Shown: piece after piece, positions 3,756 through 53,083 of the stretch | How the letters are laid out: every line of letters starts with the position of its first letter | Numbering within the stretch: the first letter of the stretch is position 1 | Assembly: GCA_946803585.1 (NCBI GenBank) | Contig: CAMPEQ010000011.1 | Span: forward strand, 372,001 to 436,000 | Source of the DNA: an uncultured Actinomycetes bacterium | GTDB taxonomy: Bacteria > Actinomycetota > Actinomycetes > S36-B12 > UBA10799 | DNA: 64,000 nt | Direction of reading: 5' to 3' | Translations under genes and position numbers: made by a program | The notes under the pieces: model-generated | Databases searched by the model: none | What the model saw: the letters and a program-made list of their open reading frames with translations, nothing else | What the model was told of the DNA's origin: nothing

Positions 3756-4364
3756 CTAACCGATTATCAACCGACGGGCGCCGGCATAGCGCGGGGCCCA
3801 GTAACTGCTGTTGATTGACTCGATCACGACATCGCGATTGGGGTTGTTGGCACCGATCATTCGGCCTTTGCCGATGTACATGGATGCGTGCTGAGATCCA
3901 CCCGAACCCCACAGCAGCAGATCACCGCGCTTGAGGTTCTTCTTGCTGACGCGCTTACCCTTCTTCATCCGAAGCTGGGCTCCGGAGTAGTGCGGGATGT
4001 TGATGCCAGCAGCCTTCTTGTAGATGATTTTGGTGAAGCCTGAGCAGTCGAAGCGCCACGGCGATGATGCACCGGCGACATACTGACCTCGACCTAGGCG
4101 CTTCTTGGCGTACTTGACGACTGACTTGCGGGTTGCGACCGCGCGCACGTGGCGGGCTTTGGCTTTGGCAGCTTTACGAGCCGCTTTAGTTGCCGCCGCA
4201 TCAGCTGGCGTTGTAACCGGCGCTGTGGCGGGCTTGGTTGCAGTCGCTGCACTGAGGCCGGCAACTGACGTTGCTGTCGCCGTCGTGGTGGTCGCGACGG
4301 GGGCCGCGATGGCTGCAGTGGCGGCGACAGCGATGCTGGCGCCAACGAGACGAGATTTACGCAT
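3756..4364 (-). CDS. Secreted NlpC/P60 cell-wall hydrolase
   Basis: The ORF track runs to 4424, but ATG 4364 gives a proper signal peptide (MRKSRLVGASIAVAATAAIAAPVA) and leaves a riboswitch upstream intact. A GGAGGAG lies about 13 bases before this ATG. The 202-aa product has a Thr/Ala-rich linker, a Lys/Arg/Ala helix (AARKAAKAKARH), and an NlpC/P60 domain over the last 120 residues with catalytic Cys in FDCSGF and His in QHASMYIG. These enzymes cut the D-Glu to diamino acid bond in peptidoglycan stems. The c-di-AMP riboswitch in the leader implies control by the second messenger used for turgor and wall homeostasis. Confidence 0.92.
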   Translation of the reverse strand: MRKSRLVGASIAVAATAAIAAPVATTTTATATSVAGLSAATATKPATAPVTTPADAAATKAARKAAKAKARHVRAVATRKSVVKYAKKRLGRGQYVAGASSPWRFDCSGFTKIIYKKAAGINIPHYSGAQLRMKKGKRVSKKNLKRGDLLLWGSGGSQHASMYIGKGRMIGANNPNRDVVIESINSSYWAPRYAGARRLIIG

Positions 4365-4386
4365 ACGGAAAGTCGAACTCCTCCTC

Positions 4387-4533
4387 GAACCGCTTCCCGG
4401 GTTAGCGAACGAACTCGGACGCAAGGAATCGACCTACCAAACGTGCTGGATTCGCCCCGACCTGATGTAGGTCCCCGGTACACCGAGCACCATCCTCCGG
4501 CTTGGGTTCAGCCAGTCAGCGCTGCGGTGATTC
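4387..4533 (-). promoter_or_regulatory. Cyclic di-AMP riboswitch (ydaO/yuaA type)
   Basis: On the minus strand the leader of the NlpC/P60 gene contains, in order, the conserved blocks I know from this class: TACCGGGGACC, GGGGCGAATCC, and the 3' block CCGAGTTCGTTCGCTAACC followed by CGGGAAGCGG. The outer helix can form between GAA..CCGC (5', near 4533) and GCGGTTC (3', near 4387). In Streptomyces and other actinobacteria this riboswitch controls muralytic enzyme genes and shuts them off when c-di-AMP binds. I judged conservation by eye without a covariance search. Confidence 0.85.
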
Positions 4534-52782: not shown

Positions 52783-52870
52783 TGGCGGAGGATAGGGGAT
52801 TCGAACCCCTGAGGGCGTTAACCCAACCCGCTTTCCAAGCGAGCGCCATAGGCCACTAGGCGAATCCTCC
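52783..52870 (-). tRNA. tRNA-Ser (anticodon GGA)
   Basis: On the minus strand, GGAGGAT/ATCCTCC forms the acceptor, the anticodon stem CTCGC/GCGGG carries loop TTGGAAA (GGA), and a long variable arm (TTGGGTTAACGCCCT) marks a class II tRNA. The T loop is TTCGAAT. The discriminator is G and CCA is encoded. Its 5' side faces the SRP RNA promoter. Confidence 0.95.
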
Positions 52871-52919: not shown

Positions 52920-52925
52920 GTTGGT

Positions 52926-53013
52926 CGACCCCTCGCGTGGTGTCACCTCGTCAATCCCCCCAGGGCCGGAAGGCAGCAAGGGTCCACGAGCTCTGGCAGG
53001 TGCGCGGGGGGTC
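52926..53013 (+). ncRNA. ffs: Signal recognition particle RNA (4.5S type)
   Basis: The conserved apical domain CCAGGGCCGGAAGGCAGCAAGGG is present with the GGAA tetraloop and internal-loop AGCA. Ends GACCCCTCGCG and CGCGGGGGGTC pair to form the long terminal helix, giving an RNA of about 88 nt, the bacterial short form. A pyrimidine-rich CCCTTTCATTT follows. It binds Ffh and FtsY for membrane targeting. The location between tRNA-Ser and dnaX is standard in actinobacteria. Confidence 0.93.
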
Positions 53014-53083
53014 CCTTTCATTTACCAGTTCATTACCTTCTCTCAGACGGCCACTCCGGTGGGCTATCGAGATTCATTCGCTC

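Follow-up and report, generated by a model that had tools for sequence, protein, structure and literature searches.

Among the c-di-AMP riboswitches that precede genes for cell wall hydrolases, the nlpC riboswitch of Corynebacterium glutamicum (RSnlpC) has been shown to be an OFF switch that most likely acts on translation, and pairing with the ribosome-binding site has been proposed for it (PMC9960051). The window, by which we mean the whole 64-kb stretch of DNA analysed here, carries an aptamer of the same type directly upstream of an NlpC/P60 gene in an actinobacterial genome from which the cyclase gene disA appears to have been deleted. We consider it probable, at roughly 0.7, that this leader is the relic of a translational c-di-AMP OFF switch left behind after disA was lost, the copy in the window being in decay and a second copy in the same genome being nearly intact.

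The aptamer and its target gene

A cmscan search of the window with all Rfam families placed a match to RF00379 (c-di-AMP, ydaO/yuaA) on the minus strand at 4523-4376, covering model positions 1-134 of 134 and scoring 45.6 bits where the gathering score is 38. The E value was 2.2e-7 in this search and 2.2e-9 when the whole genome was searched with RF00379 alone. By its full-model covariance score the leader therefore belongs to the family. A narrower scan returned the same match, and in the all-family scan it was the sole riboswitch in the window. The product of the gene downstream matches PF00877 at 90.4 bits (cut-off 23) and is thus an NlpC/P60 protein, so that a c-di-AMP riboswitch before an NlpC/P60 hydrolase, as put forward in a preliminary description of this DNA, is borne out, and the check with the Rfam ydaO-yuaA model that it had suggested gave a significant score. 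Elsewhere in the window lie a bacterial small SRP RNA (52924-53019, 67.8 bits) and, near it, a tRNA gene (52786-52870).

The conserved blocks on which that description had relied do occur in the correct order on the minus strand, CCGGGGACC at 4478-4470, GGGGCGAATCC at 4458-4448 and GCTAACC at 4406-4400, with the motifs GGGGACC, GGGGCGAATC and GCTAACC all retained. Its limits for the element (4387-4533) overlap the match but differ from those of cmscan (4376-4523), and the closing helix that it had thought possible is only partly present, as the 4-bp P1 of the model has one non-standard pair; the GGGC/GCCC helix likewise has one. Neither a sigma-70-like promoter nor an intrinsic terminator was found near the aptamer. 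Common descent with RF00379 is clear from the score and from synteny; we call the aptamer a degenerate descendant of RF00379 and not a proven working member.

The leader and its surroundings are listed in Table 1. The Shine-Dalgarno sequence follows immediately 3' of the aptamer core, and a predicted 5-bp pseudoknot (CCUUG/CGAGG) would cover its 5' part. When loops and tails were swapped between genomes, duplex prediction favoured the native pairing only weakly because all the Shine-Dalgarno sequences are alike, and we therefore infer the pseudoknot from the analogous 3' pseudoknot of ydaO. The predicted loop/Shine-Dalgarno pairing, the lack of a terminator and the precedent in C. glutamicum make a translational mechanism the likely one for this riboswitch. 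Accessibility of the Shine-Dalgarno sequence in the free minimum-energy fold was 0.25 in the window against 0.24, 0.28 and 0.58 in congeners; as these values do not separate the window from its relatives, we make no claim about the default level of expression.

Table 1. Features of the two leaders. Positions refer to the window except where a contig or locus is named.
Feature	Position	Strand	Basis or remark
RF00379 c-di-AMP (ydaO/yuaA) riboswitch aptamer	4376-4523	-	cmscan, full model
NlpC/P60 peptidoglycan hydrolase gene, 202 aa	3756-4364	-	ATG at 4364; PF00877
Shine-Dalgarno GAGGAGG	4380-4386	-	sequence; ATG spacing resembles congeners
Loop CCUUG, can pair with CGAGG at 4383-4387	4422-4426	-	duplex prediction
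CA to TC, CGTCAGCTAACC to CGTTCGCTAACC	4407-4408	-	neither column varies in 71 distinct core haplotypes
C to T, invariant column, G-C pair to G-U	4412	-	core alignment and model alignment
C to T, invariant column, GGGGACCC to GGGGACCT	4469	-	core alignment
T to C against congeners, specific to this lineage, variable column	4459	-	completes GACCU/AGGUC hairpin
C to T, U-U mismatch with 4432	4419	-	helix GGGC/GCCC in congeners
G to T, opposite 4419 in the U-U mismatch	4432	-	congener comparison
Second aptamer (L002)	C11:516420-516593 (L002 1501-1674)		43.2 bits, RF00379
Paralogous NlpC/P60 gene, 188 aa	L002 1684-2250		downstream of L002 aptamer

The architecture is shared with other members of the genus. 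Three congeners (G008, G009 and G010) have one RF00379 match each, at 71.5-75.3 bits, and these aptamers precede orthologues of the NlpC/P60 gene of the window with 61-63% identity. A gene for a TAP-like hydrolase adjoins both the window gene and the congener orthologues, joined in L056 by holB. When the window protein was used to query the genome collection, a single relative was returned. The genome to which the window belongs (2.71 Mb in 11 contigs, 98.8% complete) contains two RF00379 matches in all, the second of which (L002) stands before a paralogous hydrolase gene.

The radA-disA-mutY locus

A DisA-type cyclase had been expected in the organism on the strength of the riboswitch, and this is contradicted by the genome. 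The DAC domain defines the only known family of c-di-AMP synthases, and no significant match to it (PF02457) was found in the whole assembly, while 11 of 14 control genomes were positive. Even at a lax threshold the best PF02457 score in the genome was only 12.9 bits, in a stretch (C11:560523-560633) that was rejected as a candidate, nothing DisA-like being found in its three reading frames. The disA search that had been suggested fared no better with DisA of a congener as the query, tblastn against the genome giving a best E of 0.2 across a stretch of 48 residues. As a non-DAC source of cyclic dinucleotides, a SMODS-type CD-NTase (PF18144) was looked for in the genome and not found. A protein of the DHH family is still encoded; the c-di-AMP phosphodiesterase PdeA belongs to this family, which also has other roles.

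The site at which disA would be expected is closed. In the three congeners, in two genomes of the same family (G004 and G003) and in G013, disA adjoins radA and a hypothetical gene in convergent orientation, after which comes mutY. In the genome of the window, radA (RadA at C11:303802) overlaps that same gene by CTAG, Ppx, MutY and ClpC occupy their expected positions, and the stretch is free of N and lies inside a contig of 890,945 bases; disA has thus been deleted in place and not lost to a gap at the radA site. We also weighed, and rejected, an exchange of the radA region by recent horizontal transfer. RadA is 79% identical to that of the congener G010 as against 70% to that of G007, which also lacks disA, and this pattern favours vertical descent with deletion in place. 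An ordinary, working c-di-AMP riboswitch served by a DisA cyclase would account for the RF00379 match and the NlpC/P60 context, and it describes the congeners well; with the cyclase gene present neither at its syntenic position nor elsewhere in the assembly, we regard it as highly improbable for this genome.

Core changes in the two aptamers

The core of the aptamer was compared across 95 aptamers from the 43 genomes of the order with a match, which comprise 71 distinct haplotypes in addition to this genome's own two; 29 of 60 core columns were near-invariant, with conservation of 97% or more across the order. No near-invariant column is violated in 84 of the 95 aptamers. The aptamer of the window violates four of the 29, by C to T at 4469 and at 4412 and by CA to TC at 4408-4407; it is exceeded only by that of L116, with five violations, whose source genome (G034) has no DAC hit. 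The CA of CGTCAGCTAACC is altered in the window alone among the aptamers compared. In a relative-rate comparison of core positions, with G004 or G003 as the outgroup, seven lineage-specific changes fell on the lineage of the window and none on that of the congener (7:0, p 0.016), and four proteins of the disA locus changed evenly (90:82, p 0.59, outgroup G013). This excess is good evidence of decay, and not overwhelming, since the count of seven changes is small. In L002 only one near-invariant core column is violated, the low score of that aptamer appears to be due mainly to long insertions in variable loops, and its leader has a loop/Shine-Dalgarno complementarity of its own. That one copy is damaged and not the other may reflect chance after a recent loss of disA, or the second aptamer may still serve a purpose.

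Some of the changes could be read as signs of a new ligand. The substitution at 4469 and that at 4459 together complete a hairpin in the predicted fold, allowing GACCU (4469-4473) to pair with AGGUC (4459-4463), and this hairpin (4459-4473) would occupy part of the conserved GGGGACC block; in addition, two adjacent invariant bases are altered together in the change of CA to TC. Aptamer variants of altered specificity exist in other riboswitch classes, a report on guanidine-IV variants reportedly being an example of such close relatives, and the CA to TC change together with the new hairpin might denote a variant with another small molecule as its ligand. We give this little credence, as the variant occurs in a single species, the paralogous L002 aptamer is unaltered at these columns and changes that break helices, such as the U-U at 4432/4419, look like decay.

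A more serious competitor is a functional switch that is still fed, whether by c-di-AMP from outside, by an enzyme without a DAC domain or by a cyclase in an assembly gap, and in which the lesions are tolerated. The near-intact state of L002, the retention of an intact aptamer by G025, which has no disA, and a score in the window above the Rfam threshold would all fit such a switch, and a relocated cyclase might lie in a gap, as the genome is split among 11 contigs with 1.2% of it missing. It is nonetheless unlikely in our view, given that neither a DAC domain nor a SMODS-type CD-NTase was found, that the syntenic disA site is closed and that the window aptamer alone alters bases invariant in 71 distinct haplotypes. 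Less likely still, and clearly so, is a history in which both orphan aptamers diverged once disA was gone, the intact one becoming a sensor of c-di-AMP from neighbours in the community and that of the window being re-tuned to another ligand.

The explanation that we prefer, in which a switch has been orphaned by deletion of its cyclase gene, would run as follows. The aptamer ahead of the NlpC/P60 wall hydrolase was inherited vertically from a switch, probably a translational OFF switch, that occurs alongside DisA in the congeners; in the ancestors, as in the congeners, c-di-AMP made by DisA would stabilise the aptamer, and in its ligand-bound form the pseudoknot loop would pair with the Shine-Dalgarno sequence and repress the hydrolase. 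With disA deleted from the radA-disA-mutY locus in this species, the switch would probably receive no endogenous ligand and so stay ligand-free, and the hydrolase would presumably no longer be held down by c-di-AMP. The aptamer of the window would then drift under relaxed selection, the second aptamer being as yet nearly intact. c-di-AMP itself is presumably absent from the cells of this organism. The arrangement of aptamer and hydrolase is borne out, and a present-day link between wall cleavage and endogenous c-di-AMP is doubtful in this organism because there is no cyclase and invariant columns of the aptamer are mutated.

Distribution of the cyclase across the order and comparison with known systems

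Across the order, RF00379 was found in 37 of 48 genomes with a DAC hit and in 6 of the 51 lacking one (Fisher p 2e-11, which is only indicative because the 99 genomes are related). In a sample of the class restricted to completeness of 98% or more, 38 of 148 genomes had no DAC domain; a search of 30 of these 38 that lie outside the order gave no RF00379 match. Riboswitches therefore tend to disappear along with the cyclase, and the genome of the window looks like an intermediate. Loss of disA across the order is suggested to be a repeated event. In two of the six DAC-negative genomes with RF00379, G098 and G097, completeness is only 90% and 82%, so that the absence of disA there may be a gap.

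In G025 (L120), G007 (L117), G014 (L119) and G021 (L126), too, radA runs directly into the hypothetical convergent gene, with mutY following and disA absent; in none of these was there a significant DAC hit; in G014, G021 and G007 the overlap is the same four bases as in the genome of the window. G025 carries an aptamer (L034, G025:C162:51640-51804) of 70.4 bits upstream of a distant NlpC/P60 homologue. It has no core violations despite the closed disA locus, and together with the single violation in L002 this indicates that decay is not universal. The leader of L116 (G034:C11:19550-19715) is a severely degraded RF00379-like element of 30 bits, below the gathering score, in a genome of 1.3 Mb that is 94% complete, and is possibly another relic riboswitch. 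Two well-conserved RF00379 aptamers (L107 and L087) occur in G053, a genome 96% complete with no significant DAC hit, where the neighbourhood of radA differs and disA may either lie in a gap or have been lost.

The presence of a riboswitch is commonly read as proof of its ligand, a rule that fails here: the switch is real, the sole known synthase family is missing, and what we see looks like a sensor outliving its signal. The genome offers a natural experiment on the fate of c-di-AMP control over wall hydrolases once the messenger is lost, with controls available in the intact aptamers of the same genus and in the nearly intact sister copy of the same genome. If loss of disA has been repeated, the order could reveal how a second-messenger system is dismantled; a search of the open-licence literature yielded no publication about c-di-AMP in it.

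The layout itself, an aptamer before an NlpC/P60 gene, is ordinary and has experimental precedent in C. glutamicum. RSnlpC and the leader of the window have in common an RF00379-type aptamer before an NlpC/P60 gene, the lack of a terminator and a proposed Shine-Dalgarno pseudoknot (PMC9960051). The two differ in that C. glutamicum has DisA and PdeA, whereas in the genome of the window no DAC gene was found and lesions lie at columns invariant among its relatives. To ydaO/yuaA (RF00379) of Bacillus subtilis and Thermoanaerobacter the likeness consists in the full-length model match and in core blocks that occur in order; unlike these, the leader of the window lacks a terminator-type expression platform, has UC for the CA of CGUCAGCUAACC and has one GGGC/GCCC pair broken. 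The orthologous aptamers of G008, G009 and G010 share both gene order and target gene with the window but score 71.5-75.3 bits, show none of its four core violations and have disA next to radA.
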